From NCBI RefSeq assembly GCF_000374125.1, contig NZ_KB893631.1:1-64000 (forward strand): a stretch of DNA of 64,000 bases. Direction: 5' to 3'. The position numbers and the translations under genes were made by a program. The stretch comes from Niabella aurantiaca DSM 17617. GTDB taxonomy: Bacteria > Bacteroidota > Bacteroidia > Chitinophagales > Chitinophagaceae. The notes below the pieces were generated by a model, which was not told the DNA's origin, ran no database searches, and saw only the letters and a program-made list of their open reading frames with translations. Below are positions 41,853-48,408 of the stretch, in pieces (positions within the stretch are counted from its first letter, which is position 1; every line of letters begins with the position of its first letter).

Positions 41853-42419
41853 ATGAATGCTTTTTTTGAGGGCATGCCCTCGCTGCTCCAGGGTTTCTGG
41901 TGGGTTGCCATCATTACGAGTATTGTCTTTTTGATCCAGACCATCCTCACCTTTACCGGCGGACATGGTGCCGATGGGATCAATGCCGATTTTGACGGTG
42001 ATCTTACCGGCGCAGATGCCCCCTTTCAGATGTTCTCGCTGCGGAACCTGATCAATTTCCTGATGGGCTTTGGCTGGACGGGAGTGGCTTTTTTCCGTAC
42101 CGTCGAAAGCAAGGCGCTGCTCGTTGCACTGGCGGCATTGGTGGGCATATTTTTTGTCCTGCTTTTCTTCTTTGTGATCCGGCAGATCATGAAACTCACG
42201 GAGGACAATACCTTCAACGCGGAACGCCTCATCGGCAGATCCGGGGAGGTGTATCTGACCATTCCCGAAAACAAGAGCGGCGTGGGAAAGATCCAGATCA
42301 GCTACAACAACACCAGCCACGAACTGACCGCCGTTACAGAAGGAGAGCGCCTGCTGTCGGGCACCCTCGTAAAGGTACTGGGCATTGAAGACCGTATATT
42401 AATTGTTACTAAAATCTGA
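41853..42419 (+). CDS. NfeD-like membrane protein
   Basis: This 188-residue protein has three transmembrane segments, at about 15-35, 62-82 and 88-110. The soluble C-terminal domain (about 125-188) has the look of an OB-fold (IGRSGEVYLTIPENKSGVGK, then GTLVKVLGIEDRILIV), as in NfeD proteins. NfeD proteins are classically encoded next to flotillin/SPFH genes, and a flotillin gene starts 16 bases downstream. The pair is thought to organise membrane microdomains. No serine protease domain is present, so it is the short NfeD type. Confidence 0.85.
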   Translation: MNAFFEGMPSLLQGFWWVAIITSIVFLIQTILTFTGGHGADGINADFDGDLTGADAPFQMFSLRNLINFLMGFGWTGVAFFRTVESKALLVALAALVGIFFVLLFFFVIRQIMKLTEDNTFNAERLIGRSGEVYLTIPENKSGVGKIQISYNNTSHELTAVTEGERLLSGTLVKVLGIEDRILIVTKI

Positions 42420-42435
42420 TAAAAACAACCCACTT

Positions 42436-43962
42436 ATGAATTTTGACGGACCATTCATCCTGATCCTTGTAGGCGCATTGATCTTGTTTGTGACGATCGT
42501 ATCGCTGATCTCCCGGTACAAACGCTGTCCTTCCGACAAGATCCTCGTTATTTATGGTAAAACAGGCGGCAGTTCCGCGCGCTGTGTGCACGGTGGCGGG
42601 GCCTTTATCTGGCCGGTGATCCAGGACTTTGCTTATCTCGACCTGAAACCCATTTCTATTGAAGCCAACCTTACCAACGCATTGTCGCGCCAGAACATCC
42701 GTGTGGATGTGCCCTGCCGGTTTACCATCGCCATCTCCACCGAGCCGGATAGTATGGGGAATGCGGCAGAGCGTTTGCTGGGACTGAGCCCGGATCAGAT
42801 ACAGGAGCTGGCCAAGGATATCCTGTTTGGGCAGTTGCGCCTGGTGATCGCCACCATGACCATTGAAGAGATCAATTCCGACCGGGATAAATTCCTGGAT
42901 AATATTTCCAAGAACGTAGACACCGAGTTAAAGAAGATCGGCTTAAAACTGATCAACGTAAACGTTACCGATATTAAGGATGAATCGGGCTATATCGAGG
43001 CCCTGGGTAAAGAAGCTGCCGCCAAAGCGATCAATGAGGCCAAGATCAGCGTGGCGGAGCAGGAGAAGATCGGTGAAACAGGGAAGGCCAGTGCCGACCG
43101 GGAAAAGGACACGCAGATCGCCGAAACCAACCGCGACCGTGATGTAAAGATCGCCATCACCCAGAAAGATAAAGAGGTCAGCATCGCATCCGCCGGTAAG
43201 GATGAAGCCATCGGTAAGGCAGAAGCAGAAAGGGATGCGCGGATCGCTACATCCGAAGCAAACTCCCTCGCTGTAAAAGGAGAGAACGATGCCAAGATCA
43301 CCATTGCCAATTCGGATGCACTGCGCCGGGAGAAGGAAGCAGAGGCATTGAAGATCGCCGTAACCGCCGAAAAGGTACAGTCGGCCCGTGCATTGGAAGA
43401 ATCTTATCTTGCTGAGCAAAAAGCAGAGCAGGCCCGTGCCGAAAGAGAGCGGTCGACACAGAACGCCAATATTGTGGTGCCGGCCCAGATCGCGAAACAA
43501 AAAGTCATTATTGACGCCGAAGCAGAAGCAGAACGCATCCGGCTGAAAGCAAAAGGGGAGGCGGATGCCATCTTTGCAAAAATGGAAGCAGAAGCAAAGG
43601 GCCTTTTTGAGATCCTGACCAAACAGGCCGATGGTTATGATAAAGTGGTAAAAGCCGCCGGGGGCGATTCCACCAATGCCTTCCAGCTGCTGTTGCTGGA
43701 GAAACTGCCGGACCTGGTACGCACACAGGTAGAAGCTGTTAAAAATATCAAGATCGATAAAGTAACGGTCTGGGATGGAGGAAACGGAGAGAACGGGAAC
43801 GGTTCGACTGCCAATTTTGTACAGGGGCTGATGAAATCCGTACCACCGTTGAACGACCTGTTTAACATGGCGGGGCTTAATTTGCCCAGCTATTTAAAGG
43901 GAACAGATCCGAAAGAGCCGCAGGCACCACCGGCTGATACTTCCGCCGATCTAAAAGGATAA
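42436..43962 (+). CDS. Flotillin-family (SPFH) protein
   Basis: This protein has 508 residues from the ATG 42436. The N-terminal hairpin or anchor lies at about 6-28. An SPFH/band-7 domain follows (about 30-190: KILVIYGKTGGSSARCVHGG and DIKDESGYIEALG). A very long Ala/Glu-rich coiled coil extends from about 190 to 400, with the repeated AEAER pattern of flotillins. The C-terminus is Pro-rich. It would oligomerise at the inner membrane with the NfeD-like partner. It is closest in architecture to YqiK/FloT-type proteins. A terminator follows. Confidence 0.92.
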   Translation: MNFDGPFILILVGALILFVTIVSLISRYKRCPSDKILVIYGKTGGSSARCVHGGGAFIWPVIQDFAYLDLKPISIEANLTNALSRQNIRVDVPCRFTIAISTEPDSMGNAAERLLGLSPDQIQELAKDILFGQLRLVIATMTIEEINSDRDKFLDNISKNVDTELKKIGLKLINVNVTDIKDESGYIEALGKEAAAKAINEAKISVAEQEKIGETGKASADREKDTQIAETNRDRDVKIAITQKDKEVSIASAGKDEAIGKAEAERDARIATSEANSLAVKGENDAKITIANSDALRREKEAEALKIAVTAEKVQSARALEESYLAEQKAEQARAERERSTQNANIVVPAQIAKQKVIIDAEAEAERIRLKAKGEADAIFAKMEAEAKGLFEILTKQADGYDKVVKAAGGDSTNAFQLLLLEKLPDLVRTQVEAVKNIKIDKVTVWDGGNGENGNGSTANFVQGLMKSVPPLNDLFNMAGLNLPSYLKGTDPKEPQAPPADTSADLKG

Positions 43963-44026: not shown

Positions 44027-44632
44027 TTAATCCGGGGTCGCATCCAGGTATTGCCAGAGATGCAGGCAGGCATAAGTACGATAAGGTTTCCACGGTTCAG
44101 TTATCGAAAGCACGCGGGTCTCAAATTCCTTTTTATTGGTATAAGCAATGTTGTAGAGCTCCCCGACAGCCTTCTGCAGCCCAAAGTCGCCAATAGAAAA
44201 TACATCTTCCCGCCCCAGGGAAAACATTAGCAGCATTTCCGCCGTCCATTTTCCTACTCCCTTTATCTGGGTGATCAGGCTGATGAATGCTTCATCCGTC
44301 AACCGGTGGATCTTTGCATCCGTTAGTTTATGCTCTAAAAAGAAATGACATACGTTTTTTATATAGACGGCCTTTGCGTTTGATAACCCGATGGAGCGCA
44401 GGGTATCATGAGGAAGATCGAGGATCTTCTGCGCCGTTGGCCGTTTCCCTTCAAACAGCTCCAGGAAACGGTTACGCAAAACAGCCGCTACTTTTGTGCT
44501 CAATTGCTGCCCCATGATGGAGCCGCATAAACGGAGCAATATATTTTGCTGCAGTTGCAGGGAATGCACCCCCTGCTGTTTGATCAGCTTTTTCAAAATC
44601 TTATCCTTCGAAAGATGTTTCTGATACGACAT
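44027..44632 (-). CDS. DNA-3-methyladenine glycosylase II-like enzyme (HhH-GPD)
   Basis: This 201-residue protein of the AlkA type removes alkylated purines from DNA. The helix-hairpin-helix is seen as TQIKGVGKWTAEMLLMF. The catalytic Asp lies in VFSIGDFGLQKAV. No Lys of the bifunctional type is present, so it should be a monofunctional glycosylase. It lacks the N-terminal domain of E. coli AlkA, as in the shorter Mag-type proteins. It converges on the flotillin gene. Confidence 0.9.
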   Translation of the reverse strand: MSYQKHLSKDKILKKLIKQQGVHSLQLQQNILLRLCGSIMGQQLSTKVAAVLRNRFLELFEGKRPTAQKILDLPHDTLRSIGLSNAKAVYIKNVCHFFLEHKLTDAKIHRLTDEAFISLITQIKGVGKWTAEMLLMFSLGREDVFSIGDFGLQKAVGELYNIAYTNKKEFETRVLSITEPWKPYRTYACLHLWQYLDATPD

Positions 44633-44807
44633 AACCTAAAATTAGTCAAAGCCCCGGGGTTATACAATAATGCGGGGGATATTTTCTTCTGCAATGGCCG
44701 GATCAGAGCGGCAGAGGGGCGTCATCCATTTTAATGATGATTTTTCTTTTCTCTTTAAACCGGAATCGATAGCTTTGCGCAAAATTTCATCCTTGTTTAA
44801 AAGAATC

Positions 44808-45182
44808 ATGGCCTTGTTTTTTTTGACGACGTTTGCAATGCAGACGTTCAGCCAGGCTATCATGATGCTTGATTACAGGATAAACCGGCAGGCCTACGCG
44901 AAGAACTGTGTCAACAAGTTCCGCCCCAAAATGCATTGCAACGGGCATTGCCAGCTTATGAAGAAAATACAGGAGGAAGAAAAAAAGAACCAGCAGAATC
45001 CGGAAAGAAAACCGGACTTCAAAAATGAGATCACGCTTTTTTCAAAATCCTCTTTTCCGGAACTGCCCTTTATGATACGGAGCACTTCATTTGTTTACTG
45101 GCTCATGAATATGGGTGCCGAGATCAAAATGCCCCGCTTCGTTTTTCATCCCCCCGCTGTTCTCCGCAAAGGCATTGCCTGA
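44808..45182 (+). CDS. Small exported Cys/His/Met-rich protein, possible copper handling
   Basis: This protein has 124 residues from the ATG 44808; the open frame extends upstream to 44670 without signal-like sequence. A hydrophobic start (ALFFLTTFAMQTFSQAIMM) resembles a signal peptide. Then come Cys34 and the cluster MHCNGHCQLM (Cys44, His47, Cys48, flanking Met), and a Lys/Glu-rich stretch EEEKKNQQNPERKP. Similar small proteins are found near copper-related genes and TonB receptors in Bacteroidota as I recall. The MbnP/MbnH-like genes 390 bases downstream support a metal role. This is inference, since no family name can be given. Confidence 0.7.
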   Translation: MALFFLTTFAMQTFSQAIMMLDYRINRQAYAKNCVNKFRPKMHCNGHCQLMKKIQEEEKKNQQNPERKPDFKNEITLFSKSSFPELPFMIRSTSFVYWLMNMGAEIKMPRFVFHPPAVLRKGIA

Positions 45183-45569
45183 ACTTTAAGCATTGCCGCT
45201 TCAGATGATCCGCAACGGATCCTTTCCCTTCTTATTTTCCAGGAGGTGCCGCATCGTTTTTTGGTTTGCATCTGCACGATGGGCCCTCAGAAGATGCATC
45301 CTGCCCACAGAATGACTTTACCGGGCGGGCATTTAGATGGACCGCCGGCTTTTCATAAAGCCATGATGCTATGGAAATAGGAAACGGATGTACCCTTTTT
45401 CCAGGAACTGCTGCATGATATATTCCGCAGCTTTCTCCCGGATGATTGTTTAACCGGCACCGGGGATGCGTGTCTGAAAAAATATCCACTTCCGGCTGTG
45501 CCCGATCAGGACGCCTGGCCGGTACCGTTTTTTTAGATCCGCGCCCGGTGCGCTATTACCTTTTCAAAA
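45183..45569. other. Gap upstream of the MbnP-like gene
   Basis: No gene is supported on either strand; the open frames lack protein character. No clear promoter box or hairpin was found. Confidence 0.4.
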
Positions 45570-46382
45570 ATGAAACGACTATACTCTTTTTATACGGCGT
45601 TGTTCGCTGCCATCCTGTTACTGGCATCCTGTTCCAAGGATCCGGTGGAACCCTCTTATGATCAAAATGCGCTGGCGCCGTTATCGGTTGAATTTGACAA
45701 TATCGTTGGTGGCCAAAAGCTTGTTTTAAATACCGGGGCCTACACCAACGCCCTCGGCCAGGAATACAACATACAATTGCTTCAGTATTTTATCAGCAAT
45801 ATCCAGGTAGGAAAAGCGGATGGCACCACCTATACCGTAAACCCGGACAGCAGCTATTTCCTGATCCGGCAGGACGAACCGGGAACCCGGTTTGCCCATG
45901 TGCGGGTACCGGAGGGCAATTATACTTCTCTTACATTTACCCTGGGCGTAGACAGTCTGCGCAGCACGATGGAGGTAGGCAAACGTACCGGCGTGCTGGA
46001 TCCCGGCGCGGGCAGCGGGATGTATTGGGGCTGGAACAGCGGGTACATCTTCTTTAAAATGGAAGGCATTTCCCCGCAGGCCCCTTCGGATCCTACAGGG
46101 CAGCATAAATTCCGTTACCACATTGGTGGCTTTGGCGGTTACAGCACGCCCACGATCAATAATATCAAGACCATCAGGATCGATCTTACCAGCCGGGGAA
46201 TTGCCCAGGTACGTAAAGATCGCTCTGCCAATATCCACCTGATGGCGGATATTTCAAAAGTGCTGAGTGGCTCCACCAATGTAAGTTTTGCCGCCAATCC
46301 CCAGGTAATGTTCATCGATTACAGCGTAAACATTGCCAACAACTATGCTGGAATGTTTGTGCACGATCATACTGAAAACTGA
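45570..46382 (+). CDS. MbnP-like lipoprotein
   Basis: This 270-residue protein has the lipoprotein signal LLASCSKDP. The body matches MbnP-type proteins: the start LSVEFDNIVGGQKLVLN, LLQYFISNIQ, the DSSYFLIRQ-type piece, SLTFTLGVDSLR, and the Trp-containing GMYWGWNSGYIFFKMEG near residue 150. MbnP proteins bind copper in a site that uses a tryptophan converted to kynurenine by the di-heme partner MbnH (established for methanotrophs). The MbnH-like gene starts four bases downstream. The conserved WGWNSGY Trp residues are candidates for modification. Confidence 0.88.
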   Translation: MKRLYSFYTALFAAILLLASCSKDPVEPSYDQNALAPLSVEFDNIVGGQKLVLNTGAYTNALGQEYNIQLLQYFISNIQVGKADGTTYTVNPDSSYFLIRQDEPGTRFAHVRVPEGNYTSLTFTLGVDSLRSTMEVGKRTGVLDPGAGSGMYWGWNSGYIFFKMEGISPQAPSDPTGQHKFRYHIGGFGGYSTPTINNIKTIRIDLTSRGIAQVRKDRSANIHLMADISKVLSGSTNVSFAANPQVMFIDYSVNIANNYAGMFVHDHTEN

Positions 46383-46386
46383 TCCG

Positions 46387-47433
46387 ATGAACCGCAAACA
46401 TTTTATTGTGACCACAGTGCTGATCCTGCTGGTATTTGCCTGCTCGCGCGATCTGCCGGGAACGCATAAACCTGAAGCATTTGAAGGATTCCGGCAGCCC
46501 GGCAACTTTCCGGCTCCGGCATATCACTTTGAGACCAATCCCGTTACAAAAGAAGGGTTCGAGCTGGGAAGAAAACTCTTTTACGAAACGCGTCTTTCCA
46601 GGAACAACACGATCAGCTGTGGAAGCTGTCACATTCAGTCATCAGCATTTACCCAACACGGGCACGATGTCAGCCACGGGATCGACGACCGCCTGGGCAG
46701 CAGGAATACGCCTCCGGTCATGAACCTGGCATGGAGCCCCCTGTTCATGTGGGATGGAGGCATCTTCGACCTCGACCTGCAGCCGGTTGCACCCATAACG
46801 ACCCACGAAGAGATGGACGAAACAGTGGCCAATGTTGTTGCCAAATTACAGCAGGCACCGGAATACCGGACCCTGTTTCAAAAAGCATTTGGAAACGACC
46901 AGATCAGCACCGGCAATTTGATGAAAGCCCTTTCCCAGTTCATGCTGCTCTGCGTAAGCAGCCGTTCAAAATACGATAGTGTGATGCGCCGGGAAGGGAC
47001 CGCAGCATTCACAAGTGAAGAAGCAGCGGGTTATACACTGGTAGTACAAAAATGCGGAGGTTGTCATAAAGAGCCCCTGTTCACCGATGGCAGCTTCCGC
47101 AATAACGGTCTGGACACCGGCACCAACAAGGACCCGGGAAGATATGCCGTGACCCTGCGGCCGGAGGACCGGTATAAATTTAAAGTACCCAGCCTGCGGA
47201 ACCTGGCGTACACGGCGCCCTATATGCACGACGGCCGTTTTTATACCCTTGATGCCGTGCTGGATCATTACACAAAAGGAGTACAGGCCGCGCCGGGGCT
47301 CGACCCGTTGCTTACCGGTAACGGAGCACCGGGTATTCCGCTGACAGCCGGCGAGCGGGACCAGGTCCGCGCATTTCTGAGCACACTGAACGACCGGGCA
47401 TTTATCACCGATCGGCTGCTGGCGGAACAATAG
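46387..47433 (+). CDS. MbnH-like di-heme cytochrome c peroxidase family protein
   Basis: This protein has 348 residues from the ATG 46387. The lipoprotein-type signal ends LLVFACSRD (Cys19). Two c-type heme sites are visible: CGSCH at 78-82 and CGGCH at 223-227. Family stretches are FELGRKLFYETRLSRNNT, SAFTQHGHDVSHGIDDRLG and FKVPSLRNLAYTAPYMHDGR. It belongs to the bacterial di-heme peroxidase/MauG superfamily. Four bases from the MbnP-like stop, it is the MbnH-type partner that would oxidise a Trp of MbnP. A plain peroxidase role remains possible. Confidence 0.9.
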   Translation: MNRKHFIVTTVLILLVFACSRDLPGTHKPEAFEGFRQPGNFPAPAYHFETNPVTKEGFELGRKLFYETRLSRNNTISCGSCHIQSSAFTQHGHDVSHGIDDRLGSRNTPPVMNLAWSPLFMWDGGIFDLDLQPVAPITTHEEMDETVANVVAKLQQAPEYRTLFQKAFGNDQISTGNLMKALSQFMLLCVSSRSKYDSVMRREGTAAFTSEEAAGYTLVVQKCGGCHKEPLFTDGSFRNNGLDTGTNKDPGRYAVTLRPEDRYKFKVPSLRNLAYTAPYMHDGRFYTLDAVLDHYTKGVQAAPGLDPLLTGNGAPGIPLTAGERDQVRAFLSTLNDRAFITDRLLAEQ

Positions 47434-47475
47434 AACGCAGAGTCGGCCGGCAGCTTTTCAAATAAAAAAGAAACA

Positions 47476-48408
47476 ATGAAAAAACAATGGATCCAAATCG
47501 GATTGTTCCTGTTCCTGTTCTGGACGGTTCCTAAATCCTCAGTGGCCTGTGATATCTGCGGCTGCGGAGTAGGGAACGATTATATCGGCATCCTGCCGGA
47601 TTTTCACAAGCATATCTTTGGCCTGCGTTACCGGCATAATTCGCTGTGGAGTCATTTGGGAGTAGGCGGACAGCGTACCTACCTGACCACATCCGAGCAA
47701 TACAATACCGTGGAAGCCTGGGGCGGCTGGAACATCGCCGAAAAATTCCGCGTGATGGCGGCCGTTCCTTACAGCATCAACCGGCGCAGCAACGATGGGC
47801 AAACCCTTACCAAGAGCGGGATGGGCGATGTAACGCTGTCTGCATTTTATCAGCTGATCAATGAACGGCGGTCCCTGGGAAATAAGCTCCTGGTGCAAAG
47901 CCTTTGGTTGGGAGGGGGACTGAAGCTGGCCACGGGGAAATACAGTCCTGCAGACCGGACAGCCACGGCCGAAAGCGCCAACCTCTTTCAGCTTGGCTCG
48001 GGCAGCACCGATTTTTCGCTGAACGGGATGTATGACCTGCGGTTGCAGGATGCAGGCATTAACCTCGGGGCGCATTATAAGATCAATACGGCCAACCGGT
48101 ATGACTACCGCTACGGGAACAAGGTCAATCTCAATGCGCAGGCTTATTATAAGTTCCGGATCGCTGGTCAGGTGATGATCGCTCCCAATGCGGGTGTACA
48201 ATACGAGAACGCGAAGACCGACGTGGATAACGATGTATTGGTAACGGTATCCGGCGGAGACCTTCTGATGGGAACGGCAGGGGTAGAAACAGCCTATAAA
48301 AAAATAGCGATCGGCGCCAATATTCAAACGCCCTTTTCTCAAAACCTGGCGCACGGCATTGTGAAAGCCAATAACCGGGTAATGGTGCATCTGTCGATGG
48401 CGCTTTGA
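47476..48408 (+). CDS. Outer membrane porin-like protein with N-terminal CxxCxC motif
   Basis: This 310-residue protein has a signal peptide ending near residue 24, then CDICGCGVGN (Cys25, 28, 30) directly at the mature N-terminus. The rest alternates aromatic and polar residues as in a beta-barrel (EAWGGWNIAEKFRVMAAVPY, GLKLATGKYSP) and ends HLSMAL. It follows the MbnH-like gene by 42 bases and completes the set. The Cys motif at the likely periplasmic end may bind metal, and the barrel may pass copper or a small chelate. I know of similar 'transporter'-annotated proteins beside MbnP/MbnH genes, but their function is not established. Confidence 0.8.
   Translation: MKKQWIQIGLFLFLFWTVPKSSVACDICGCGVGNDYIGILPDFHKHIFGLRYRHNSLWSHLGVGGQRTYLTTSEQYNTVEAWGGWNIAEKFRVMAAVPYSINRRSNDGQTLTKSGMGDVTLSAFYQLINERRSLGNKLLVQSLWLGGGLKLATGKYSPADRTATAESANLFQLGSGSTDFSLNGMYDLRLQDAGINLGAHYKINTANRYDYRYGNKVNLNAQAYYKFRIAGQVMIAPNAGVQYENAKTDVDNDVLVTVSGGDLLMGTAGVETAYKKIAIGANIQTPFSQNLAHGIVKANNRVMVHLSMAL

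Follow-up and report, generated by a model that had tools for sequence, protein, structure and literature searches.

What does an MbnP/MbnH-type pair of genes do in a member of the Bacteroidota, and why should a small gene for a cysteine protein stand ahead of it? The question is raised by a locus of Niabella aurantiaca DSM 17617 (genome of 5.9 Mb), where four open reading frames (ORFs) follow one another on a single strand and encode a small cysteine protein, an MbnP-like protein, an MbnH-like protein and a barrel. They lie within the stretch of 64,000 nucleotides (nt) analysed here (positions 1 to 64,000 of contig NZ_KB893631.1, hereafter the window), whose ORF list gives the four frames in the row and at the places that an initial annotation of the locus had described. 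That annotation saw in the small protein, with its CxxHC motif, one more copper-handling protein; its conservation and its context point instead to a regulatory upstream ORF, which is what we predict it to be, and we call it the leader. The gene set probably builds an unusual copper-binding protein, and the reading that we favour, with some reserve, is that of a copper-responsive operon that makes and uses a kynurenine copper site, in which the leader would be a cis-acting sensor of copper working as a nascent chain, and not a carrier. That the first gene controls the operon in this way is something we infer because its CxGxC motif, a terminal Pro-Pro (PP) at a kept spacing and the company of TonB receptors are marks of the copper-responsive upstream ORFs of the CruR and CutF kinds.

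The leader ORF and its family

The family of the leader was assembled as 149 distinct proteins from 158 loci, namely 78 loci of the MbnP search and 80 fetched leader regions. Every one of these proteins carries CxGxC, and 147 of them end with a PP within the last 10 residues, mostly as FHPP (73), FRPP (22) or FQPP (13). The distance from CxGxC to PP is kept at 62-73 residues, with 122 of the 147 at 64-68, over a variable intervening sequence. In this line, an alignment of 47 members leaves only C48, C58, G60, C62, P129 and P130 as columns without exception, with N50 at 90% or more. Other proteins encoded at the same loci hardly ever finish in this manner: a PP in the last 10 residues occurs in none of 93 MbnP, one of 100 MbnH and none of 60 barrel sequences, in 3 of 667 ORFs of at least 250 amino acids (aa) and in 24 of 1363 ORFs of 100-249 aa. 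Moreover, a profile ending behind CxGxC, and hence blind to PP, still recovered 149 proteins of which 147 had it, so that the motif cannot stem from the search itself. The two leaders lacking PP, one of them the first copy at locus L039 and the other from L045, where mbnH is in several pieces, may be sequence errors. The strong conservation of the end, after a middle that drifts in sequence but hardly in length, suggests that what matters for the leader is to finish at a given spacing from the cysteine motif.

Leaders of this family occur in at least 158 of 395 sampled Bacteroidota genomes, and a hydrophobic N-terminus was recognised by eye in the alignment. Comparison of the 47 aligned members with Pfam and NCBIfam assigned no family, giving only 14 weak and scattered families at E ≤ 0.1, the best of them (0.00063) an unrelated Cys-rich domain; DUF2946 (PF11162), the family of CruR, was absent from these matches. 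A profile-profile comparison (hhalign) of the leader family with eight Bacteroidota DUF2946 proteins gave a probability of 0.6%. DUF2946 is itself rare in the phylum (8 of 296 genomes, 5 above the cut-off) and missing from the genome of N. aurantiaca, and with neither a Pfam nor a profile-profile match we rejected the leader as a member of that family.

A cassette conserved in Bacteroidota

The four genes are a real cassette, conserved in Bacteroidota. Among 45 loci from named genomes, picked by similarity to the MbnP of the window, mbnH lies beside mbnP in all 45, and the small gene and the barrel each belong to the cassette in 43. The commonest order is small gene, mbnP, mbnH and barrel, and at three loci (L013, L073 and L078) the barrel is placed before mbnP. 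A sample of 296 Bacteroidota genomes contained MbnP in 78, and the 29 further loci with the best MbnP scores of this sample, taken with flanks of 1.5 kb that are too short to count the barrel, showed mbnH in every case and the small gene in 19. The genome of N. aurantiaca has a single MbnP, whose nearest relatives, in Niabella pedocola and others, are 79-85% identical.

As the initial annotation had proposed, the second and third genes encode a pair of the MbnP/MbnH type, although a divergent one as judged from sequence and models. The MbnP-like protein matches Pfam MbnP (PF20243) with 173.2 bits for a cut-off of 27 (E 7.2e-51), and 'MbnP family copper-binding protein' is its nearest family name in NCBIfam, well below that family's cut-off. 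Its structural model (predicted local distance difference test, pLDDT, of 91) fits the solved MbnP 7l6g with Z 18.4 and a root-mean-square deviation (rmsd) of 3.3 over 221 aligned residues, the next structure reaching Z 4.9, and in a profile search 7l6g was the sole solved chain matched (E 4.9e-05). The alignment of both proteins sets GMAWNW and HVG of 7l6g opposite GMYWGW and HIGG of the window. In the main MbnP clade (73 of 94 distinct sequences), W153, W155 and H184 are found in 73 of 73 sequences and M151 in 71 of 73. The two Trp residues that the initial annotation had singled out are thus conserved, and as the Trp and ligand columns are kept, the loss of these residues, named there as the sign of an erroneous reading, was not what we found. 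In Methylosinus trichosporium MbnP we take copper to be bound by His and Met together with a kynurenine that arises from the leading Trp of WxW, and we assume the aligned positions of 7l6g to be these ligands. By analogy with that residue, W153 is predicted to be the one that would become kynurenine.

Some loci (L037, L043, L045, L047, L048, L049, L050, L051, L054 and L059) hold tandem double cassettes with the order leader-mbnP2-mbnH2-mbnP1-mbnH1-barrel. In the 10 complete copies of mbnP2 the WxW is retained, as WMW, the His column is occupied by Glu (ETG) and the Met column by V, I or D, perhaps the mark of a kynurenine protein that binds a different metal or no metal at all.

The MbnH-like protein matches CCP_MauG (PF03150) with E 4.9e-52, and its closest solved relative is 6e1c ('Di-heme enzyme', E 2.3e-39), with cytochrome c peroxidases and MauG ranking behind; the TTQ_mauG model gave 179 bits, short of its cut-off of 443.85. 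Both CxxCH motifs (C78-H82 and C223-H227) and Tyr295 are unchanged in 32 of 32 MbnH-like sequences, and W122 in at least 90%. Tyr295 presumably occupies the place where classical peroxidases use Met, and the protein shows the features of the MauG/MbnH type, two CxxCH and a Tyr replacing the peroxidase Met. Two further MauG-type di-heme genes (L002 and L003) occur elsewhere in the genome, which offers an MbnP partner to neither of them; one lies within a frame of 644 aa.

The fourth gene encodes, by the fold of its model, an outer-membrane channel, in agreement with the initial idea that the pair has a channel of its own. The best match is 4rl8, a COG4313 channel (14% identity, rmsd 2.5 over 251 residues, Z 25.3), followed by FapF at Z 25.1, so close a tie that the assignment is left at a COG4313-type fold. 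A24, C25, C28 and C30 of its N-terminal CxxCxC are invariant in 31 of 31 sequences. This motif falls within residues 17-34, a stretch of low model confidence with pLDDT below 50.

Pairs of MbnP and MbnH beyond the producers of methanobactin have already been published (PMC3621798), and as a kind the pair described here is not new. It resembles that of M. trichosporium OB3b (7l6g and 6e1c) in the adjacent genes, the MbnP fold, the aligned WxW, Met and His, and in having there the best solved relative of its MbnH. It differs in that identity over the MbnP fold is 15%, both proteins score below the equivalog cut-offs, and the cassette adds a leader ORF and a COG4313-type channel. The initial remark that no methanobactin genes are visible can be extended from the locus to the genome for MbnB, whose family gave one match of 20.9 bits (cut-off 25) with two internal stops, other mbn genes not having been searched for. 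With no MbnB above the cut-off, a methanobactin operon was rejected.

Genomic company, putative promoter and gap

The 80 fetched leader regions, hand-picked from the matches listed and mainly away from MbnP, make a next-gene tally that is not a random sample. They contain 84 leader ORFs, 83 of which have a next gene on the same strand, and 74 of these next genes are neither MbnP nor a strong barrel match; 73 of the 74 were scanned, the one omitted being itself a second leader copy (the second copy of L127 was kept), together with 56 of 59 second genes. The next gene carried the Plug domain of TonB receptors in 50 of 73 cases, YtkA in 6 and SCO1 in 3. Among the 56 second genes, 11 had PepSY_TM and 6 had SCO1. 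A model of TonB-dependent copper receptors matches 30 of the 73 next genes (best 2.3e-49), matches that alone do not prove copper, because models of other receptors match at least as many. TIGR01778, the copper TonB receptor, was not found at E 1e-20 in the genome of N. aurantiaca, from which nothing is concluded since the control genomes were blank too. With its leader family in the company of copper transport genes, the link of the pair with copper that had been proposed initially is supported. In some regions (for instance L118 and L131) a YtkA-domain gene lies behind the leader, and several such regions have a TonB-receptor-sized ORF in second place. In L127 and L152, two leader copies stand in direct succession ahead of a TonB-receptor-sized gene.

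Ahead of the leader there is a putative promoter element, TAnnTTTG, which we take to be the Bacteroidota -7 consensus. It is found in three of four aligned Niabella-type loci, and the fourth differs by one base. In the 120 nt ahead of the leader gene it occurs in 67 of 107 cases, and in the 120 nt past the stop in 2 of 107, for an expectation from 200 base shuffles of 9.1 on average and 17 at most. It often stands just 4-9 nt ahead of the assigned leader ATG, so some starts of leaders may be misassigned. Sigma-70 promoters, scanned for with an E. coli-type model ill-suited to the phylum, were rejected, with 3 found against 4.4 in shuffles. In the gap between leader and mbnP, a conserved intrinsic terminator was rejected for lack of both conservation and shuffle excess, and an Rfam riboswitch was likewise rejected.

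Relation to known copper leaders

Two kinds of copper-responsive upstream ORFs offer a frame for the leader. CruR of Bordetella pertussis, a DUF2946 upstream ORF, stalls at RAPP, and copper on its CxxC relieves the stall and permits Rho-dependent termination; the operons that open with one of its homologues contain genes for TonB receptors, PepSY_TM, Sco, PCuAC and MbnPH-like proteins, separated from the homologue by a long gap (PMC9426467). The leader shares with CruR the place as a small, presumably exported first ORF and a cysteine motif at a fixed distance from a C-terminal PP, and its family shares the long gap and the company of TonB receptors, PepSY_TM, SCO and MbnPH. In contrast, it has CxGxC plus an extra Cys in place of CxxC, FxPP in place of RAPP (FHPP in the window), and a spacing of 64-70 residues for the 45 of CruR, and this last difference is to us the most interesting one. 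The word 'Bacteroid' does not appear in the available text of the CruR paper. In one Bacteroidota genome (L192), a DUF2946 ORF (1411-1860, + strand) ends in RGPPGLLA about 360 nt before mbnP and is without the second Cys of CxxC, and so a CruR-family protein sits there at the very place of the leader.

CutF, with CxxxC and a proline end, works in the opposite sense to CruR, through a stem-loop that covers the Shine-Dalgarno site of the following gene, and has a short gap (PMC9973294). In Rhodobacter capsulatus it has CxxHC at residues 69-73 and PPP near residue 114 of 118 (PMC8456105). CutF-like proteins, defined by their size, a signal peptide and PP near the end, belong to Pseudomonadota for 55% and to Bacteroidota for 40% after normalisation (PMC9973294), and this broader kind, too, was thus already known, Bacteroidota included. 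The leader shares CxxxC and PP within the last 15 residues, and passes the filters of the published survey for size, PP and next gene, with 124 aa counted from the ATG at 44808 (<150), FHPP 8 residues before the stop and mbnP on the same strand 387 nt on (<1000); the leader family may therefore be in the published list, in a paper whose main text contains neither 'MbnP' nor 'methanobactin'. It departs from CutF in a spacing some 20 residues longer, in the lack of a conserved stem-loop in the gap, and in TonB receptors behind it and not a multicopper oxidase. A third likeness is with the RAPP/RGPP arrest peptides (PMC12992588, PMC10987492), also with Pro-Pro near the stop of a small exported leader, where F-[HRQ]-PP here replaces R-[AG]-PP. 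According to the survey of the latter, certain groups, Bacteroidota among them, lack copper-related peptides of that type (PMC12992588), in line with the FxPP replacement in this family. The literature searched, whose coverage leaves out many journals, yielded no description of FxPP leaders or of the four-gene cassette.

Proposed mechanism and alternatives

Under the proposed mechanism, transcription would start ahead of the leader and the ribosome would slow or arrest at FHPP while finishing it. When copper is scarce, the stalled ribosome would keep transcription of mbnP, mbnH and the barrel going, whereas Cu(I) on the nascent C-x9-CxGxC would relieve the stall and the operon would be attenuated in the 387-nt gap by a polarity of the CruR type. 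In MbnP, W153 would then be oxidised to kynurenine by MbnH and would form a Cu(I) site together with M151 and H184; copper acquisition would be the task of this protein and the channel. The family is a mixture of a CutF-like Cys motif with CruR-like gene company and long gaps, and CruR polarity is favoured for the leader because most next genes serve import; Rho is encoded in the genome.

Several observations weigh against this mechanism. The gap is poorly conserved, with a mean column identity of 60% in the four Niabella-type loci against 89% at the promoter, its terminator-like sites (4 against 5.4 in shuffles) are not in excess, and a scan of 44500-45700 matched nothing in Rfam. Two positions ahead of PP the family mostly has F where RAPP has R, AAPP variants of the latter are arrest-defective (PMC12992588), and the proline end of CutF alone is no strong stalling sequence (PMC9973294). 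Moreover, 10 of the 29 wider MbnP loci have no leader inside their 1.5 kb, and a search of them for another small ORF with Cys and PP found none. The NCBIfam equivalogs, finally, fall short of their cut-offs, with 45.7 bits for 140 in MbnP (TIGR04052) and 210.5 for 362.85 in MbnH (TIGR04039, 'MbnH family di-heme enzyme').

These scores below the cut-offs would also suit a pair without a role in copper uptake, MbnH being a peroxidase and MbnP its redox partner or the binder of another metal, and the MbnP2 of the tandem cassettes, which keeps WxW without His or Met at the conserved columns, tells that the fold is used somewhere without these ligands. Even so, the MbnP of the window retains M151, W153, W155 and H184, the Tyr of MbnH is invariant, and the leader family ties the cassette to copper transport genes, all of which makes this explanation a very improbable one. 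With copper granted, the leader could have the sign of CutF, so that copper would stall it, the downstream genes would be switched on and the cassette would handle an excess of the metal. CxGxC is indeed a CxxxC as in CutF, the PP end and the exported nature fit, and CutF-like proteins also precede efflux and detoxification genes, many of them in Bacteroidota (PMC9973294). We nevertheless regard this opposite sign as unlikely: most next genes encode TonB receptors (50 of 73) and so speak for import, no conserved stem-loop is seen, and the 42 leader-to-mbnP gaps measured, of 42-614 nt, have a median of 217 nt where CutF has a short gap. Much the same can be said of an ordinary periplasmic carrier or donor of Cu(I), with CxGxC working like the CxxxC of SCO, that would load MbnP or the barrel and use its PP end for folding or degradation. 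Three invariant Cys in a presumably exported protein and copper-gene neighbours speak for it, and CutF itself was initially taken for a chaperone (PMC8456105). It is rather unlikely in view of a protein that in the 64-70 residues past the Cys motif conserves little and yet keeps their length and the PP near the stop, which is not expected of a folded carrier, and of a small gene that heads several unrelated next genes.

Returning to the nascent-chain sensor, its long spacing offers a more specific idea. Glycosylation mapping is reported to give a span of about 65 residues between the centre of the ribosome and the far end of the Sec channel. A spacing of 64-70 residues, against 45 in CruR, would then let the Cys motif begin to leave the Sec channel into the periplasm while the ribosome is at FxPP. 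The leader could in this way work while spanning the membrane, and the ribosome would read periplasmic copper to set the expression of TonB receptors and of the kynurenine-copper protein across Bacteroidota, a tentative proposal that we rate as possible and somewhat doubtful. Should the leader be a nascent-chain sensor of copper, on whichever side of the membrane, a family lacking a Pfam or NCBIfam model would gain a role, the reading of copper during its own translation, and MbnP/MbnH pairs outside methanobactin operons would be tied to copper-responsive control. The FxPP motif and the longer spacing would widen the known range of arrest sequences, copper operons of Bacteroidota could be found in a simple way, and the membrane side of copper sensing could be asked about directly.

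Features of the locus and neighbouring genes

Table 1. Coordinates of the cassette and its elements, numbered along the window
Feature	Position	Strand	Basis
Putative -7 promoter element TAGCTTTG (TAnnTTTG)	44770-44777	+	30 nt ahead of leader ATG
Leader, an ORF of 124 aa with a hydrophobic N-terminus, C-x9-CxGxC and FHPP at the C-terminal end; candidate copper-sensing upstream ORF	44808-45182	+	ORF list (listed frame opens at 44670), family alignments
First conserved leader Cys codon	44907-44909	+	invariant in 47/47 aligned members
CNGHC (CxGxC), proposed Cu(I)-sensing motif	44937-44951	+	C, G, C invariant in 47/47; CxGxC in 149/149
FHPP, proposed arrest motif, 8 residues before stop	45144-45155	+	PP in last 10 residues in 147/149
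Leader-mbnP gap, 387 nt	45183-45569	+	no Rfam match, no conserved structure seen
mbnP-like gene, lipoprotein of 270 aa	45570-46382	+	PF20243, 173 bits; model compared with 7l6g
M151-Y-W153-G-W155, conserved Met and WxW; W153 the predicted kynurenine	46020-46034	+	MbnP alignments
H184, conserved His (HIGG), likely copper ligand	46119-46121	+	alignment with 7l6g
mbnH-like gene, di-heme lipoprotein of 348 aa, two CxxCH	46387-47433	+	PF03150, 177 bits; listed ORF opens at TTG 46333
Outer-membrane beta-barrel, N-terminal CxxCxC (CDICGCG)	47476-48408	+	model pLDDT 85; fold matches 4rl8 and FapF

Upstream of the cassette, the region 41853-43962 encodes an NfeD-like protein and, next after it, a protein of the SPFH/Band 7 type, both of them ordinary neighbours.

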